Made by a program: the position numbers and the translations under genes. Below the pieces are notes generated by a model, which saw nothing but the letters and a program-made list of their open reading frames with translations, ran no database searches and had not been told where the DNA came from. This document shows positions 8,168 through 41,377 of a DNA stretch of 64,000 bases, in pieces. This DNA is from Stutzerimonas stutzeri (GTDB lineage: Bacteria > Pseudomonadota > Gammaproteobacteria > Pseudomonadales > Pseudomonadaceae), in assembly GCA_019056435.1 (NCBI GenBank), contig CP077641.1:1240001-1304000 (forward strand), read 5' to 3'. The stretch's first letter is position 1. Each line of letters begins with the position of its first letter.

Positions 8168-9192
8168 ATGAGGAAATCACTACTCGCCCTGCTGCTGGTG
8201 GCGGTTGGCGGCATGGCTCAGGCCGCTGTGGAGCTCAAGGAAGGCCATCCTGAGCAATACACCGTGGTGAAGGGCGACACGCTTTGGGACATTTCCGGTC
8301 GTTTCCTGCGTGAGCCGTGGAAGTGGCCGGAACTGTGGCATGCCAACCCTCAGGTCGAGAACCCACATCTGATTTATCCAGGCGACAAGCTGAGCCTCGT
8401 CTACATCGACGGGCAGCCGCGGCTGATGCTCAATCGTGGCGCGTCGCGTGGCACCATCAAGCTCTCCCCGACCGTACGCACCACGCCGATGGCTGAGGCA
8501 ATCAGCACCATTCCGCTGGAAGCCATCAATTCCTTCCTGCTCAGCAACCGCATCGTCGACACGGCTGAGCAATTCGAATCGGCGCCCTATATCGTCGCCG
8601 GCAATGCCGAGCGGGTCATCAGCGGCGCCGGCGATCGCATCTATGGTCGCGGCGCCTTCGATCAGCAGGTCGGCGCCTACGGCGTGTTCCGCCAGGGCAA
8701 AACCTATGTCGATCCTGAGAGCGGCGAATTTCTCGGCATCAATGCCGACGACATCGGTTCCGTCGAGTTGCTGGAAGTCGAAGACGACATCGCTACCCTG
8801 CGCTTGACCCGCGTTACCCAGGAGGCCCGTCTCGGCGACCGGCTGTTCCCCAATGAAGAGCGTGCGGTGAACTCCACCTTCATGCCAAGCGAGCCCAAGG
8901 AAAGGTCGAAGGCCTGATCCTCGACGTCCCGCGTGGCGTGACGCAGATCGGCCAGTTCGACGTGGTTACCCTGAACAAGGGCGCGCGTGACGGCCTGGAG
9001 ATCGGCAACGTACTTGCGGTCTACAAGACCGGCGAAACGGTGCGCGACCGGGTCACCGGTGAGAACGTGAAGATTCCGGACGAGCGCTCCGGTCTGCTGA
9101 TGGTCTTCCGCGCTTACGAAAAGCTCAGCTACGGCCTCGTCCTGCAGGCGACCCGCTCGCTGGCTGTAATGGACAAGGTACGTAATCCCTGA
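8168..9192 (+). CDS. LysM peptidoglycan-binding protein, frameshifted
   Basis: Exported LysM protein, about 341 aa when repaired, matching the homologue next to dprA in Pseudomonas (PA0020 in memory). It starts MRKSLLALLLVAVGGMAQA, a clear signal peptide, with AAAGGGA upstream of the ATG. The LysM domain runs from about residue 36 (EQYTVVKGDTLWDISGRFL) to YPGDKLSLVY. The frame is lost near 8898-8905; one added base joins it to the downstream frame GVTQIGQFDVVTLNKGARDG, which ends at 9192. The likely role is cell-wall binding; the exact function is unknown to me. Confidence 0.88.
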
Positions 9193-21037: not shown

Positions 21038-23134
<2,097 letters not shown>

Positions 23135-23357: not shown

Positions 23358-23604
23358 ATGGCGCGCTTCTTCCCCGTTCGGTCCCAATGTCAATTCGACA
23401 CCCCCGGCAAGCGGCGCTCTGCCGAGCGGCTGGAAAAGCTGCTCGAAGACGACTACCTCTGCTGGAACACCGTCCCGGTCGGGCCCAAGGCTCGCTACCC
23501 GGGCTTCGTTGTTCTTCATCCGCGTCGCGGCATTCTTTTGCAGAGGTCAGGAATTGAAGCTCCGTTATCCAGAGCGGGGGGATTCCCGGCTCTGGAGGCC
23601 CGAA
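23358..23604 (+). pseudogene. NERD-domain (nuclease-related) gene remnant
   Basis: The N-terminus reads MARFFPVRSQCQFDTPGKRR, then ERLEKLLEDDYLCWNTVPVG and FVVLHPRRGIL, which matches the start of NERD-domain proteins, often fused to superfamily 1 helicases in mobile or defence loci. After about 65 residues the frame is disrupted; fragments of the expected EVxxWKL motif lie in another frame near 23550-23570. The gene stops at the 21-bp repeat at 23606. Only a small part of the usual length remains, so it is a relic. AAGGACAGGTAC precedes the ATG. Confidence 0.7.
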
Positions 23605-23605
23605 T

Positions 23606-23626
23606 AATAAATCTGTCCCCTTTTCC
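23606..23626 (+). repeat. Left copy of 21-bp inverted repeat flanking the cassette array
   Basis: The core AATAAATCTGTCCCCTTTTC plus a final C recurs exactly as the reverse complement at 26149-26169. It ends five bases before the first cassette core site at 23631. I recall similar GGGGACAGATTTATTT sequences beside REP-associated tyrosine transposases in other Gammaproteobacteria; no transposase is present here. Confidence 0.8.
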
Positions 23627-23649
23627 CAACGTTACCTGCAAGGACGCGC

Positions 23650-24306
23650 ATGCAAAATCTTCTAAAAACACAAATCGTTGCTGAGGACCTGAAGCGGTTG
23701 TACTACGAAATAAATAATTCCAGGCGATACCCTTTTCGATTTCGCCAGGCATTTGAACAGTACATATACAAAAGCCAGCAACTAACAGAAACAATGCGTA
23801 AGGAATTCCGTTCTCTAACCGGAAATAACTGGGTAGCAGGAGAATTCACAGGCTGGAACGAATATACAAATATTCTAAAAGCGCTTCGTAACGCCACTTA
23901 TCATGGTCACCCTTTAGCTCTGCACGGAACAGCCCTTACACTGTATCCGGGTGTTGAATTCGCCACCGATATTGACCCGCCATCTGAGTTAGATTTCGTT
24001 CGTGGCTATCGAATTATGGAATCAACGTTATTCATCGAATTACCTTTCGATGAGGAAATTCTTCCAATTAGCGCAGGCTTTCCTATAAAAAATATAAATC
24101 CAGGTGGTCCTACTCATGCATTTCCACTTAAAGAGTTCATAAGCTATAAGCTCACGTGGCGCCTTCTCGAGGAGGGCGTGCGAAAAGCCACAGATAAAGC
24201 TGGAACCACGGACGCTGTCAAAATTACGCTGCACAGTTATCCTGCTCTAGCCGCGTACTGCAAATATTACACAAGCGTTCTAAATGAAAATCGCGCAAGC
24301 AGCTAA
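23650..24306 (+). CDS. Cassette 1 protein with HEPN-like RNxxxH motif
   Basis: 218-aa soluble protein, AT-rich relative to the chromosome. The N-terminal half is helical (AEDLKRLYYEINNSRRYPFR, then a long helix with QQLTETMRKEF) and contains KALRNATYHGHPL. The R-N-x-x-x-H pattern there is the active-site signature of HEPN ribonucleases. The C-terminal half looks beta-rich (STLFIELPFDEEILPIS) and is unknown to me. The start follows the cassette core by 19 bases, and the stop TAA is part of attC1. A HEPN RNase or toxin is an inference from one motif; it might equally be a structural HEPN-like fold. Confidence 0.72.
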   Translation: MQNLLKTQIVAEDLKRLYYEINNSRRYPFRFRQAFEQYIYKSQQLTETMRKEFRSLTGNNWVAGEFTGWNEYTNILKALRNATYHGHPLALHGTALTLYPGVEFATDIDPPSELDFVRGYRIMESTLFIELPFDEEILPISAGFPIKNINPGGPTHAFPLKEFISYKLTWRLLEEGVRKATDKAGTTDAVKITLHSYPALAAYCKYYTSVLNENRASS

Positions 24307-24363
24307 CAAGTGGCTCCGCTCACTGGGACGGGCTGAAGCCCGCCCCTTAACCAAACGTTAGAG
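24301..24363 (+). other. attC site 1
   Basis: A 63-bp recombination site from the inverse core (GCTAAC) to the core GTTAGAG at 24357. The inner stem ACGGGCT-GA-AGCCCG is shared with attC3, as is the right arm CCTTAACCAAACGTTAGA. It is about 11 bp shorter than attC3, having lost part of the left arm. Confidence 0.85.
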
Positions 24364-24389
24364 GCCACCCCCAATTCGGAGTATACACA

Positions 24390-24680
24390 ATGACGAAACA
24401 GAATCTTGGACCACACGCCGCCACAGCAAATAATCAACTTACATTTTCTCAGGCATTCGCCCAAGCAAGCAGTAACCCTACAAGACGATATGCAACCACA
24501 GGCAACTCTACGCCATTCACAGCAGAAGCCGCTGTGACGAGCAAAGGTATTCACATGGGTCAGCAAGTAATAATATTTCGCTCAGAAGGGAAAGAAAGAG
24601 CTCGAGCTTATCCATGCTGCTGGGGCCAGCAAACGAACTGCAATAGCACACATATAAATTGCTACACCGAAGCAATGTAA
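24390..24680 (+). CDS. Cassette 2 hypothetical protein
   Basis: 96-aa protein. The first 55 residues are polar and low in structure (THR/ASN/ALA rich); the last 40 (GQQVIIFRSEGKERARAYPC followed by CWGQQTNCN) contain four cysteines in a short span and resemble short cassette-encoded proteins I have seen, without a known function. The ATG is 33 bases after the cassette core. An internal methionine at residue 56 (MGQQVII) could be the true start of the folded part. Confidence 0.55.
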   Translation: MTKQNLGPHAATANNQLTFSQAFAQASSNPTRRYATTGNSTPFTAEAAVTSKGIHMGQQVIIFRSEGKERARAYPCCWGQQTNCNSTHINCYTEAM

Positions 24681-24692
24681 TGAGTAAGCGGC

Positions 24693-24769
24693 CTCTAACA
24701 ATGCGCTCAAATCGCTCACTTTGTTCGCTGGGTCCGGCTAAAGCCGGCCCCTTGGCTTAATCGTTAGGT
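24693..24769 (+). other. attC site 2
   Basis: A 77-bp site from inverse core CTCTAAC to core GTTAGGT (24763-24769). The inner stem TCCGGCT-AA-AGCCGG and right arm CTTAATCGTTAG are the same subtype as attC4. Confidence 0.88.
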
Positions 24770-24778
24770 ATCCATCGA

Positions 24779-25186
24779 ATGCCTACAGGTGTATATAGAA
24801 GAGTTTTTATTACATCAAGATGGGCAGTAAAGGTGCCTCGAATAAGAAATATTATTCGAGGGGCACGTTGCAATAGATGGGAAGCAGAGATGTGGCGAAA
24901 ATGGAGGCCAAAATTCGGATGGGCACACTTATGCCCAGTTCGATTCTGCGACCCTCTGGGGCTCGTTCTTGTTATGTACAGAGCACTCCAACCTGTAACT
25001 TTTGAAGAGATCAAGCTCGCAAACGACGGAGAATATAGCAATTACTACCCCAATCCCGACATGGAGTATAAGCCAGAAAACTGGGGAAAAATTGAAGGCA
25101 AAATTGTTTGCTTGGATTACGGCATTGACGAGCTTGAACTAATCACAAAGATCAGGCGTAAATATCGAGAAATGAGTAGCACCTAA
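24779..25186 (+). CDS. Cassette 3 hypothetical protein with kinase-like sequence features
   Basis: 135-aa protein. The N-terminus VYRRVFITSRWAVKVPRIRN has a beta-strand with a VKVP lysine, followed by a helix with Glu (RWEAEMWRKWR). The C-terminal KIVCLDYGIDELELI places an Asp-Tyr-Gly where kinases carry the DFG motif. No HRD catalytic loop is visible, so a small kinase-like or pseudokinase fold is only a suggestion. It starts 10 bases after the core GTTAGGT, leaving no room for a normal ribosome site. The stop TAA belongs to attC3. Confidence 0.65.
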   Translation: MPTGVYRRVFITSRWAVKVPRIRNIIRGARCNRWEAEMWRKWRPKFGWAHLCPVRFCDPLGLVLVMYRALQPVTFEEIKLANDGEYSNYYPNPDMEYKPENWGKIEGKIVCLDYGIDELELITKIRRKYREMSST

Positions 25187-25254
25187 CAATCCGCTCATCG
25201 TTCGCTTCGCTCACTGGGACGGGCTAAAGCCCGCCCCTTAACCAAACGTTAGAT
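25181..25254 (+). other. attC site 3
   Basis: A 74-bp site from inverse core ACCTAAC to core GTTAGAT (25248-25254). The left arm holds CGTTCGCTTCGCTCACTGGG; the inner stem is GGGCTAAAGCCC. Confidence 0.88.
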
Positions 25255-25259
25255 ACCTT

Positions 25260-25920
25260 ATGACAGCATACCTACACTTCCAGCACAGCATCACTGCAGC
25301 GCAGAAACTGACAGAGATGTACAAAGAATTACGCCGTCACCGTCAACTGGGCCAGCGAGGCAGATTAACCCCGCAAAACGAAGATCTCTTATGGTTACCA
25401 CGCTCCGCCGTGGTTGCATCTCTCTGCATTAGATGCATACGTTCACACAGTTCTAAAAGAACAAATTCCGCACGCACTACGAATGGAGCCAATTCCGCTG
25501 CCGCTATGCGAAGCAATGGCCAGCATCATCCCAATAAAAAACGGAGCAAATTTTAGAGACGCAATTCCTGTAATATCTGCAGCAAATATCTATCTAGAGC
25601 TATCCGAACGCCTTAATGATAAAACGCTTTCATTTTTATCCTATCAAGCGCCGGAGAAAATAATAACCGGATACGACCTTATTGGGCACCAAAACATATT
25701 CGAATCAGTATCTCAGTTATGGCCAGGCCCAAACACAACAGCCACAGATATTAAACGCATCCTGGCCAACTACGTGAAACGCCGAAATCAAATTGCTCAC
25801 GACGGAGATCGAGAGGCCAATGGCGCGGTGCGTCATATGCAGCCAGCTTATGCAAACGAGTGCTCTGAATTTATAGAAAACCTAGTATCCAGACTAAACA
25901 GAATCGTCTACGGTATCTAA
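25260..25920 (+). CDS. Cassette 4 RiboL-PSP-HEPN-like protein, frameshifted
   Basis: About 220 aa when the frames are joined. The first part (ITAAQKLTEMYKELRRHRQL, then LLWLPRSAVVAS) is in one frame and the remainder (SALDAYVHTVLKEQIP to the end) in another; the switch lies in the TCTCTCT tract at 25419-25425 and is a net +1 change. The C-terminal helix carries VKRRNQIAHDGD, the R-N-x-x-x-H motif of HEPN ribonucleases, and the whole layout matches RiboL-PSP-HEPN proteins. The stop TAA is part of attC4. As written the gene is broken, by read error or true inactivation. Confidence 0.75.
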
Positions 25921-25991
25921 CAATGCGCTCAAATCGCTCACTTCGTTCGCTGGGACCGGCTCAAGCCGGCCCCTTAGCTTAATCGTTAGAT
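25915..25991 (+). other. attC site 4
   Basis: A 77-bp site from inverse core ATCTAAC to core GTTAGAT (25985-25991), closely similar to attC2 over its full length. Confidence 0.88.
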
Positions 25992-25995
25992 ATTT

Positions 25996-26187
25996 ATGCA
26001 GATAACTGAGTGGGTCATAGCAGCGACAGCGTGGACAAATGAGAATCAAGGCGTTCTCAGTGTTGCGCTATTCTTGATCACTGTGATTTTTGGCTGGTTT
26101 AGCGGAATTTTCTCTGCTCTACGCCGGAAACCAAAATTCAAAATAAACGGAAAAGGGGACAGATTTATTTTCCGCCGAACATTTTGA
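25996..26187 (+). pseudogene. Cassette 5 gene, truncated membrane protein
   Basis: The ORF starts five bases after the attC4 core: MQITEWVIAATAWTNENQGV, then one hydrophobic segment (LSVALFLITVIFGWFSGIF) and RRKPKFKI. I recall longer hypothetical membrane proteins beginning this way. Here the reading runs into the right 21-bp repeat at 26149 after about 50 residues and stops at 26187. The cassette has no attC of its own, so its 3' part has been lost. Confidence 0.7.
26149..26169 (-). repeat. Right copy of 21-bp inverted repeat flanking the cassette array
   Basis: Exact reverse complement of 23606-23626 (reads GGAAAAGGGGACAGATTTAT then T on the plus strand). It interrupts the cassette 5 gene. 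Normal chromosomal composition resumes beyond it. Confidence 0.8.
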
Positions 26188-26239: not shown

Positions 26240-26626
26240 ATGACCCATTCCTTTTCCATACTCCCGCAGAGCTTCGCGATCGCGCGGTTGGAGCCGAGCG
26301 CCGACGTGCCGAGCGCTGTTTTGGCTTCGCCAGGTTTCATGTCTATCACGCGCACAGATGATGAACTGTCGATCGTCTGTGCGGAGGATGCCGCAACCGG
26401 TTTGAACCGAGTGGATAACGGGTGGCGCGCGATCAAGGTGCAGGGGCCGTTCGCCTTTGATCAGACGGGCGTGCTGGCCTCGTTTCTTGACCCACTCGCG
26501 GCGGCTTCCATTGGCATCTTCGCGGTGAGCACGTTTGATACCGATTACATATTTGTCAAGTCGGACAATTTCGAACCTGCAGTAAAGATCTTGAAAGAAG
26601 CGGGGCACCGACATCTGGAAGGGTAG
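26240..26626 (+). CDS. ACT domain-containing protein
   Basis: 128-aa protein with two ACT-like halves. The start MTHSFSILPQSFAIARLEPS is followed by SITRTDDELSIVCAEDAA; the second half, FDQTGVLASFLDPLAAASIG then FAVSTFDTDYIFVKSDNFEP, fits the CASTOR/aspartokinase-like ACT pattern. Such small proteins may bind amino acids; the target is unknown. Its composition is chromosomal, so it marks the right side of the island. Confidence 0.8.
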   Translation: MTHSFSILPQSFAIARLEPSADVPSAVLASPGFMSITRTDDELSIVCAEDAATGLNRVDNGWRAIKVQGPFAFDQTGVLASFLDPLAAASIGIFAVSTFDTDYIFVKSDNFEPAVKILKEAGHRHLEG

Positions 26627-26711: not shown

Positions 26712-27299
26712 ATGCGCATTCCCATTGTCGTTCACCCGCCCATGACCCCCCTAGAACTCATCGCCTCCGCCCTTGGCGTACTCGCCGTCTGGCTTACCGT
26801 GCGGCAGAACCCTCTGTGCTGGCCAATCGGGTTGGTAATGGTGGCGCTCTATGCCTGGTTTTTCTTTGAGGTGCGGTTGTATGCGCAGGTGCTGCTCAAC
26901 GGCGTCTTTGCGGCGATGCAGCTGTATGGCTGGTGGCAGTGGAAGCGGGGCAGCGGCGGGGAAGGCGGGCGGCCGGTGGTGGGCGCGACGGTGATGGAGA
27001 TCGCCATCGGGCTCCTGGTGGCGGCGCTGGGGAGCGTCGGGCTCGGTCTGCTGATGACGCACACCGAGGCGGCTTACCCCTGGCCGGATGCAACGCTGAC
27101 GGCCTTCAGCCTGCTGGCGCAACTGTGGATGGCACTCAAGCGATGGCAGTGTTGGGTGTTGTGGACCGTCGTGGATGTGCTTTACGTGACCTTCTTCATC
27201 TTTCAGGACTACTGGCTCACCGCCGGGTTGTACGGGTTGTTCACCGGGCTGGCGGTGATGGGCCTGCGGGAGTGGCGGCAGGCGAGGGTGGTGCAATAG
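26712..27299 (+). CDS. pnuC: Nicotinamide riboside transporter PnuC family
   Basis: About 195 aa with six to seven hydrophobic segments. PnuC features include LIASALGVLAVWLTVRQN, the NPLCWPIGLV segment, YGWWQWKRG and the C-terminal WTVVDVLYVTFFIFQDYWLT. PnuC transports nicotinamide riboside, which is trapped by phosphorylation. The NadR-like kinase gene at 29625 would supply that step, with an ABC exporter gene between. The start may be 26712 or the internal ATG at 26742 (MTPLELIA), which fits the family better. Confidence 0.88.
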   Translation: MRIPIVVHPPMTPLELIASALGVLAVWLTVRQNPLCWPIGLVMVALYAWFFFEVRLYAQVLLNGVFAAMQLYGWWQWKRGSGGEGGRPVVGATVMEIAIGLLVAALGSVGLGLLMTHTEAAYPWPDATLTAFSLLAQLWMALKRWQCWVLWTVVDVLYVTFFIFQDYWLTAGLYGLFTGLAVMGLREWRQARVVQ

Positions 27300-27683: not shown

Positions 27684-29519
27684 ATGTTGTTCCGCCGTTT
27701 CGAAAATCTCATCGACGTCTTCAAACCCAGCCCGGACGTCGCGCCGCCGGCCGGGATGCTGCGCTTTTATGCCCATTACCTGAAGCAGGTCTGGCCGCTG
27801 ATGACGGCCCTGCTGGTGGTCGGCTTCGTCGTTGCGGTGATCGAGGTGGCGCTGTTCAGCTTTCTCGGCCAGTTGATCGATATGGCGCAAACGACCGATG
27901 ACGCCCGGACCTTCTTCGCCGAACACCGCGGCGAGTTGCTGTGGATGGCACTGGTGGCGCTGGTCGTCCGGCCGCTGGTGTCCGGTCTGCACAACCTGCT
28001 CACCCATCAGGCGATCAACCCGGGGTTGACCAACCTGATCCGCTGGCAGAACCACCGCTACCTGCTCAAGCAGAGCCTGAACTTCTTCCAGAACGACTTT
28101 GCCGGGCGCATCGCCCAGCGCGTGATGCAGACGGGCCCGTCGCTGCGCGATTCGGCCATGCAGGTGATCGATGCGCTCTGGCATGTGGTGGTCTACGCCG
28201 GCAGTGCGCTGTACCTGTTCGCCTCCGCCGACCTGCGGCTGATCGTGCCGTTGCTGCTGTGGATCGTCGGTTATACGGCCGCGCTCTGGTACTTCGTGCC
28301 GCGCATCCGCGCGCGTTCGGCGGCGGCTTCTTCCGCGCGTTCGAAGGTGATGGGGCGGGTGGTGGACGGCTACAGCAACGTCGCCACGCTCAAGCTGTTC
28401 GCCCATTCGCGGGGGAGGAGAAGCTACGCCCGCGAGGCGATGCAGGAGCTGCTCGGCAAATTCCGCCTGCAGTCGCGCACCATCACCAGCCTGGATTTCC
28501 TGATCACTTGCATGAACGGCCTGTTGATCGTCTGCACCGGTGCGCTGGCACTGTGGCTGTGGAGCGAGGCGCTGATCAGCACCGGTGCCATCGCCCTGGC
28601 GCTGGGCCTGGTGATTCGCATCAACAACATGGCCGAGTGGATCATGTGGGTGGTCAACGGCATCTTCGAAAACGTCGGCACCGTGCAGGACGGCATGAAG
28701 AGCATCGTCCAGCCGCGCGATGTGCTCGACCCCGAGGACGCCAGGCCGCTGGAGGTGGAGCAGGGCGGCGTGCGCTTCGAGGAGGTGCATTTCCACTACG
28801 GCAAGCAGGGCGGGGTGATCAGCGGACTCTCGCTCGACATTCGTCCCGGCGAGAAGATCGGCCTGGTTGGGCCGTCGGGCGCCGGCAAGTCCACCCTGGT
28901 CAATCTGATGCTGCGCCTCTACGACCTGGAGAGCGGGCGCATCCTCATCGACGGCCAGGACATCGCCATGGTCAGCCAGGAAAGCCTGCGCGCGAACGTT
29001 GGCGTGGTCACCCAGGACACCTCGCTGCTGCACCGCTCGATCCGCGACAACCTGCGCTACGGCAAGCCGGACGCCACCGAGGAAGAACTCTGGGCCGCGG
29101 CACGCAAGGCCCGCGCAGATGTGTTCATCAAGTCCCTGGACGACAGCCAGGGCGGCCTGGGCTTCGAGGCGATGGTGGGCGAGCGCGGCGTGAAGCTCTC
29201 CGGCGGGCAACGCCAGCGCATCGCCATCGCCCGGGTTCTGCTCAAGGACGCGCCGATCCTGGTGCTCGACGAAGCCACCTCGGCGCTGGATTCGGAGGTC
29301 GAGGCGGCGATTCAGGAGAGCCTGGATACCCTGATGGAAGGCAAGACGGTGATCGCCATCGCCCACCGGCTGTCGACCATTGCGCGCATGGATCGGCTGG
29401 TGGTGATCGACAAGGGCCAGGTGATCGAGACCGGCACCCACGCCGAGCTGATCGCCCGCGGCGGGCTCTATGCGCGGCTGTGGCAGCACCAGACCGGCGG
29501 CTTCGTCGGGGTCGAATGA
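27684..29519 (+). CDS. ABC exporter, fused permease-ATPase
   Basis: 611-aa half-transporter: six membrane helices in about 1-340 and a nucleotide-binding domain in about 350-600 with Walker A GPSGAGKST, signature LSGGQRQR, Walker B ILVLDEATSALD and H-loop AIAHRLS. It belongs to the lipid/multidrug exporter family (MsbA-like). The substrate is unknown. It lies between pnuC and the NadR-like kinase gene on the same strand. Confidence 0.92.
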   Translation: MLFRRFENLIDVFKPSPDVAPPAGMLRFYAHYLKQVWPLMTALLVVGFVVAVIEVALFSFLGQLIDMAQTTDDARTFFAEHRGELLWMALVALVVRPLVSGLHNLLTHQAINPGLTNLIRWQNHRYLLKQSLNFFQNDFAGRIAQRVMQTGPSLRDSAMQVIDALWHVVVYAGSALYLFASADLRLIVPLLLWIVGYTAALWYFVPRIRARSAAASSARSKVMGRVVDGYSNVATLKLFAHSRGRRSYAREAMQELLGKFRLQSRTITSLDFLITCMNGLLIVCTGALALWLWSEALISTGAIALALGLVIRINNMAEWIMWVVNGIFENVGTVQDGMKSIVQPRDVLDPEDARPLEVEQGGVRFEEVHFHYGKQGGVISGLSLDIRPGEKIGLVGPSGAGKSTLVNLMLRLYDLESGRILIDGQDIAMVSQESLRANVGVVTQDTSLLHRSIRDNLRYGKPDATEEELWAAARKARADVFIKSLDDSQGGLGFEAMVGERGVKLSGGQRQRIAIARVLLKDAPILVLDEATSALDSEVEAAIQESLDTLMEGKTVIAIAHRLSTIARMDRLVVIDKGQVIETGTHAELIARGGLYARLWQHQTGGFVGVE

Positions 29520-41300: not shown

Positions 41301-41377
41301 TGGCGCATCCGGCGGGATTCGAACCCACGACCCCTGCCTTCGGAGGGCAGTACTCTATCCAGCTGAGCTACGGATGC
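41301..41377 (-). tRNA. tRNA-Arg (anticodon CCG)
   Basis: 77 nt with encoded CCA. The acceptor stem pairs GCATCCG with CGGATGC. The D arm is TAGCTCAGCTGGATAGAG, the anticodon arm CTGCC-CTCCGAA-GGCAG gives anticodon CCG (reads CGG), and the T arm contains GGTTCGAATCC. The discriminator is G. A terminator follows immediately. Confidence 0.96.

Follow-up and report, generated by a model that had tools for sequence, protein, structure and literature searches.

A cassette array in Stutzerimonas stutzeri that may be the decayed remnant of an integron platform served in trans

In a 64,000-nucleotide stretch of the Stutzerimonas stutzeri chromosome (contig CP077641.1, positions 1,240,001 to 1,304,000; hereafter the window), an array of integron gene cassettes lies at 23631..26148, away from any integrase gene (intI). 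We consider it rather probable that this array is what remains, after decay, of a satellite integron platform without intI, formerly served by an integrase (IntI) acting in trans. In the scheme that we propose, a single intI, that of the main integron, would be responsible for cassette insertion and excision at its own attI and, in trans, at extra attI copies, the regions of which would be kept without intI at recurring chromosomal addresses. The window would hold one such address, with the order histidine kinase – [helicase] – [attI + cassettes] – ACT/PnuC – ABC transporter. Here, the attI and the first part of the array would have been lost. The helicase gene is truncated and, at the right end, cassette 5 is interrupted; repeats resembling repetitive extragenic palindromes (REPs) mark both junctions of the array. 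The trimming would have been done by rearrangement between REP copies rather than by transposition by RAYT, a Y1-type transposase.

Four plus-strand attC sites, all beginning with CTAAC and ending with GTTAG, separate the cassettes: site 1 at 24303..24361 (65.4 bits, E 3.3e-16), site 2 at 24695..24767 (82.4 bits, E 6.9e-21), site 3 at 25183..25252 (91.8 bits, E 1.9e-23) and site 4 at 25917..25989 (89.5 bits, E 7.9e-23). These scores come from the covariance model R2, which recovered all four sites although none was used in its training. R2 was built from 12 main-array attCs, five from another locus of the window's genome and seven from two relatives, the latter chosen from matches of a model, R1, that includes the window sites; for these sites, R1 scores are thus circular and only R2 tests them fairly. 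In both models, which rely mainly on sequence, the RNAalifold structure differs from the canonical attC fold. Up to E 1, R2 matched the window beyond the four sites only with two partial minus-strand hits inside the same sites (E 0.3). The bottom strands of sites 1 to 4 folded better than shuffled sequences (z -2.54, -4.24, -2.45 and -3.29, respectively). Rfam at gathering scores gave no match at the sites, the existence of an attC family in Rfam being unchecked. An earlier reading of the window made from its letters (the first-pass annotation) had described four attC sites in two subtypes. Both statements held up: the independent model finds the sites, which rules out that annotation's own counter-hypothesis of another extragenic palindrome family, and sites 2 and 4 (92% identity over 83 nt) and sites 1 and 3 (85% over 67 nt) pair closely enough that the two subtypes are real.

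Neither intI nor attI was found in the 64 kb, in agreement with the first-pass annotation: the TIGR02249 profile had no match, the best tblastn hit had an E value of 0.5, and a 31-mer attI pattern with up to 11 mismatches was unmatched on both strands. With neither a functional intI nor an attI beside its first cassette, the array is not a complete integron; with four attCs within 1.7 kb (R2) and no integrase within 64 kb, it is a cluster of attC sites lacking an integrase (CALIN). The annotation's term 'stranded CALIN' therefore fits the definition but is incomplete, because the address is orthologous to that of intI-less attI platforms and the ends are set by REP-like repeats. We retrieved this address from relatives through the ABC transporter gene on the right flank (27684..29519, plus strand; Pfam ABC_tran), the DNA of which was matched in 43 of 56 genus genomes. 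From these, 35 loci were fetched (one only 1.3 kb long), giving 37 sources together with locus L061 and the window; here and below, G numbers denote genomes and L numbers loci of this analysis, G000 being the window's genome. attCs (R1, E ≤ 0.001) occur at the address in 17 of the 37 sources, window included, and intI in none of them (tblastn, E ≤ 1e-4). Nine fetched loci carry sequence matching the main-integron attI, and 14 genus genomes have an attI at the window's address (type A platforms). Type A is defined by the interval from histidine kinase to ABC transporter, which the window shares, and by an attI region ending in GTGTCTAATTATAGTTAG, which the window lacks; its array is therefore filed as a likely derived remnant and not as a member of the type.

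The 31-base attI pattern, with up to 3 mismatches, found 57 sites in 36 of the 56 genus genomes and none in the reversed control; it is not exhaustive, as the main locus of G041 has no match. An intI match (E ≤ 1e-40) lies within 3 kb of 18 sites, leaving 39 sites, in 29 genomes, without one. Sixteen of these genomes have an intI match elsewhere, which in 11 of them spans at least 290 of 315 model positions with no stop; the other 13 gave no match. The 39 intI-less attIs recur at several addresses, which we sorted, in part by eye, according to flanking genes and upstream sequence into type A (14 sites), B (13), C (4) and D (3). The remainder comprises a main-like site in G039, a copy at an assembly gap in G016, and one site each in G008, G013 and, at a contig end, G014. 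G016 has a second attI copy that adjoins an N and was treated as an assembly artefact. Upstream flanks were similar in 78 of 78 pairs within type B, 48 of 78 within type A (13 of the 14 loci compared), 2 of 6 within type C and 1 of 6 within type D (L226 included). Between types, similarity was absent from A–B (0/169), from A–C, B–C and B–D (0/52 each) and from C–D (0/16), and was found in 7 of 52 A–D pairs, all of which involve L222, the kinase of which is only 52% identical to that of the window. DctP is the neighbour at type B and DNA polymerase II at one type C address.

The platforms resemble the intI–attI intergenic region up to about the start of intI. Most attI copies begin, about 110–125 bp before GTTAG, with a box like TGGTGTATAA, the reverse complement of TTATACACCA boxes, and several type A copies depart from it. 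A search of the 39 platform loci for remnants of intI gave none (best E values 0.56 and 0.98); of these loci, L133, L225 and L243 extend less than 1 kb on the intI side. In a collection of 84,980 species, the exact attI pattern matched 17 stretches, 14 titled Stutzerimonas (S. azotifigens, S. stutzeri, S. kunmingensis, S. frequens, S. zhaodongensis and S. chloritidismutans) and three from Pseudomonas metagenome-assembled genomes.

Footprints compatible with an integrase acting in trans were found in relatives. G063 carries a full-length intI at C1:3.776 Mb of a 4.73-Mb contig, with its main array at C1:3.78 Mb, and a satellite attI without intI at C1:50 kb. Over 881 bp, the two cassettes beside the satellite attI share 98.75% identity with part of the main array. 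The identity begins at the GTTAG of the attI, a point at which the partner is preceded by an unrelated attC, and it ends at the GTTAGG of an attC. Homologous recombination would not be expected to stop exactly at these crossover points. Likewise, a cassette common to the main array and a type B platform of G003 starts exactly at GTTAGG in two attC contexts. The att-bounded sharing in these two genomes suggests, as far as sequence comparison can tell, service by IntI in trans. Related cassettes also turn up between genomes, the first satellite cassette of G011 sharing 89% identity with a main cassette of G063 and 95% with one in the type B platform of G041. The first 250 bp beyond attI are unlike in every pair of the 14 type A sites, so that cassettes have been exchanged at sites without intI; the first cassettes at the 13 type B sites are of 11 kinds, with two pairs shared.

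Further same-genome matches were rejected as evidence of exchange: the segments examined in G059 and G007 encode IS110 or DDE transposases, the G041 match is a 355-residue open reading frame (ORF) without a Pfam match at a main locus in which no attC was found, and the G053 and G061 matches are overlapping fetches of one stretch. IS110-type transposase genes lie in or beside main-array attCs in L172 (G007) and L185 (G059), with near-identical copies in intI-less platforms. In L218 of G003, at about 2648-2773, the identity of the shared cassette is lost inside its attC, as if interrupted by other DNA.

Both ends of the window array coincide with an inverted REP-like repeat, the left arm of which (23601..23626, plus strand) contains AATAAATCTGTCCCCTTTTCC and the right arm of which (26149..26174, minus strand) reads GGAAAAGGGGACAGATTTATTTTCCG on the plus strand; the arms match at 24 of 26 positions. 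On the left, a truncated 5′ end of a NERD/UvrD-type helicase gene remains at 23358..23575 (plus strand), 89% identical to residues 1-61 of the intact protein, which has 627 residues (for example, in L061) and, on an intact relative, Pfam NERD and UvrD matches. Helicase-side DNA similarity stops at 23575 or earlier in most relatives and at 23627, beyond the motif, in G012, where the helicase is truncated at nearly the same place, with the motif (one mismatch) and a cassette following in that order. On the right, cassette 5 (25996..26148, plus strand) retains only its first 51 codons and is cut by the right arm, which begins at 26149. The motif also cuts an attC mid-site in two relatives (L104 and L131), the left motif in G044 and the right motif in G053. 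Because the repeats cut cassette 5 and attCs of relatives and abut the truncated helicase gene, the array ends were not made by IntI.

The 17-mer core of the repeat (up to 2 mismatches) has two matches in the window against 0.00 expected, and the 20-mer AAATAAATCTGTCCCCTTTT (up to 3 mismatches) has 11 copies in the window's genome and none when read backwards. Its 16-mer core has 94 exact copies in 34 of the 56 genus genomes and none in the control, and nine times forms '<N21-23>' pairs with starts 37–39 bases apart; 12 of the 94 copies, read from their coordinates, fall between the histidine kinase and the ABC transporter. A search of 35 motif loci with RAYT proteins found RAYT genes (Y1_Tnp, Pfam PF01797) in five: in L139 and L144 they are enclosed by '< >' pairs, and in L013, L143 and L158 they are close to the motif; the other 30 loci gave none. 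The repeat thus looks like a REP family tied to RAYT genes; as letters, it did not occur in the literature searched. The RAYT genes and 55-nt palindromes are enclosed by the motifs ('< >'), but the array is on their outer side ('> array <'), for which reason rearrangement between REP copies is preferred over RAYT transposition as the event that would have trimmed it. The pair in the window is not a REP doublet (REPIN), in which two inverted motifs sit some tens of nucleotides from each other with their AT-rich ends turned inward: its arms face the other way and stand 2.5 kb apart. Measured against a composite transposon or a miniature inverted-repeat transposable element, the array shows inverted repeats and, at their outer ends, no target-site duplication.

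Over the whole of G000, R2 found 18 attCs: four in the window, five at C1:2.03 Mb, eight at C1:3.79 Mb and one at C1:3.048 Mb. The search of the rest of the genome for intI that the first-pass annotation had proposed turned up a damaged copy 0.77 Mb from the window, ruling out a genome without any integrase trace. This sole integron-type TIGR02249 match (C1:2031596-2032030, 205 bits) covers model positions 1-145 of 315, is degraded beyond position 145, and adjoins an attI and five attCs of the window's type; four weaker matches at two other loci were taken as ordinary tyrosine recombinases. Given a partial match followed by degradation, the genome's own IntI is probably not active and, with this intI broken too, the array is probably frozen now. 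Mobilization in trans, which the first-pass annotation had allowed for, is accordingly unlikely by the integrase of this genome; footprints compatible with such action come from relatives. Copies of the own-genome attI (31-mer, up to 3 mismatches) occur only at C1:2.03 Mb and C1:3.80 Mb; the second (L217, C1:3789000-3801000, locus position 8204, minus strand) has no intI and eight attCs, with EamA- and LysR-type genes as neighbours. The lone attC, at C1:3047956-3048036, is far from all arrays.

Several observations weigh against the proposal of a platform served in trans. The window contains no trace of an attI, so that we infer its former presence from position only. The 13 of 29 genomes with intI-less attI but no intI match at E ≤ 1e-40 mean that platforms may persist as relics after intI loss. 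Sharing bounded by att sites between main array and platform was seen in only two genomes, G063 and G003; the intI match of G003 has two stop codons today, and the remaining same-genome matches are insertion sequences (G059 and G007) or a segment of no assigned kind (G041). Upstream of the first box, some tens of bases are common to types B and C though their wider flanks differ, a feature that concerns L219, L220, L225 and L234 compared with type B loci. In addition, a review reports that the P. stutzeri Q integron has its promoter inside intI (PMC8876359), which intI-less platforms may therefore lack. In a different history, each address would once have been a complete integron that lost its intI independently, with no service in trans. 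The resemblance of the platforms to the intI–attI intergenic region up to about the intI start agrees with it, as do the 13 genomes without a detected intI. We nevertheless think this history unlikely: it needs many separate losses, the 39 loci hold no intI remnant (best E 0.56; three of them with less than 1 kb on the intI side), the first cassettes differ among all 14 type A sites and fall into 11 kinds at the 13 type B sites, and the satellite of G063 has exchanged cassettes with its main array.

The array might instead be a plain CALIN, inserted in one or a few events at a secondary attG-like site by a once-active IntI or separated from the main integron through rearrangement, the address being only a hotspot. 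The lack of an attI in the window speaks for this, as does the finding, in the consulted part of a Xanthomonas study, of conserved CALIN loci away from the main integron (PMC12444791); the 12 of 94 motif copies between histidine kinase and ABC transporter across the 56 genomes would, moreover, suit a general hotspot. Insertion at an attG yields no attI, however, and 14 genus genomes have one at this very address, which makes a plain CALIN improbable in our view. Far less probable still is that a mobile element ended by inverted repeats carries the array as its cargo and was moved whole by a RAYT-type (Y1) transposase. Such an element would account for the 24/26 inverted repeat around the array, for a second inverted pair in the genome that bounds other cargo (a 517-residue ORF and a weakly PHP-like one) after tRNA-Gly, and for the RAYT genes adjoining the motif in 5 of 35 loci; but the RAYT genes and 55-nt palindromes sit inside '< >' and the array in '> <', no target-site duplication was seen at the outer ends, and the motif of relatives cuts attCs at differing points. 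More generally, we lean slightly towards the view that Stutzerimonas has a distributed integron, with one integrase and several intI-less attI platforms bearing their own arrays, the window showing one after attI loss and REP trimming; many arrays classed as CALINs elsewhere could then be platforms whose attI has gone unrecognised.

The usual description of an integron combines a single integrase with a single attI and a single array. Should one IntI indeed serve several platforms, the system would be a network, with arrays in different contexts of one cell that persist after local intI loss, and the conserved positions of CALINs would have a ready explanation. Surveys that seek attI only beside intI, or only those of mobile classes, would miss such platforms; the attI models of IntegronFinder are limited in this way. 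The window array shares its attC type with the main integrons of the genus, including the damaged copy in its own genome, and thus with the Pseudomonas stutzeri chromosomal integron, reportedly described by Holmes in 2003 and by Coleman and Holmes in 2005; it differs in having no intI, no attI and a separate chromosomal address. In the literature searched, we found no description of intI-less attI platforms; two founding papers on the P. stutzeri integron lay outside its reach, and an earlier description is possible. With the REP/REPIN–RAYT systems, the array ends have in common a short motif that occurs as inverted pairs and beside Y1/RAYT genes; the difference is that single motifs here face each other around 2.5 kb with no RAYT in the array. 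As in the CALINs of the Xanthomonas study, several attCs occur without a nearby intI, at addresses conserved there as well according to the consulted part of that source; orthologous sites with an intI-less attI and ends formed by REP-like repeats that cut cassettes set the present case apart, and none of the attI mentions examined in that paper concerns an attI at a CALIN (PMC12444791). The consulted portion of a report on delta-attI-type cassettes in class 1 and 2 integrons (PMC12901181) likewise places an attI away from its usual location, whereas the attI regions described here span about 110–125 bp at separate chromosomal addresses, each with its own array.

The first-pass annotation had counted five plus-strand ORFs. 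Five cassettes are indeed present, although the fifth is the 51-codon fragment described above and the fourth is split over two frames. The ORFs of cassettes 1 (23650..24306, 218 residues), 2 (24390..24680, 96 residues) and 3 (24779..25186, 135 residues), all on the plus strand, have no significant Pfam, NCBIfam or PADLOC match and no relative among the main and platform loci searched. Cassette 4 (25260..25920, plus strand; frames 25260-25556 and 25414-25920) may be a broken HEPN-like gene: it has a weak Pfam match to RiboL-PSP-HEPN (E 8.2e-5, under the curated cut-off) and is 79% identical in DNA and 86% in protein to a G063 main-array cassette with a single open frame of 226 residues. The truncated protein of cassette 5 is 47% identical over 49 residues to a G010 cassette protein that also has a 226-residue open frame. 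At 23631..23636 (plus strand), the letters GTTACC, read directly, might tentatively be what is left of the core of an upstream attC or attI since lost; they resemble the CCAAACGTTAG ends of neighbouring attCs, yet violate the attC core consensus GTTRRRY. Compared with plasmid and phage collections, the array matched 79 and 2 records, respectively, with at most 10% of the query covered among the matches listed (20 and 2).

The left flank carries a hybrid histidine kinase/response regulator gene (21038..23134, plus strand; Pfam HATPase_c, HisKA, PAS and Response_reg), which has a similar left-hand counterpart in relatives. Before the ABC transporter gene, the right flank holds, on the plus strand, an ACT-domain gene (26240..26626; Pfam ACT_7, E 1.6e-20), also found after the attI-cassette array of G011, and a gene for a PnuC-like nicotinamide mononucleotide transporter (26712..27299; Pfam PF04973, E 1e-51). 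Elsewhere in G000, a second inverted REP-like pair lies directly after a tRNA-Gly gene (L012, 2312-4978; C1:78.8-81.5 kb), as if the repeats frame unrelated inserts; its cargo is the 517-residue ORF, without a Pfam match, and a 164-residue ORF with a weak PHP match below the cut-off, and its reading by eye as an AAA gene was unsupported by Pfam. A cluster of RAYT (Y1_Tnp) genes occupies L013 (C1:888500-898000), two of them 98.7% identical in protein and others broken, with the motif alongside. The sole Rfam match of the window is a tRNA gene at 41304-41377 on the minus strand.

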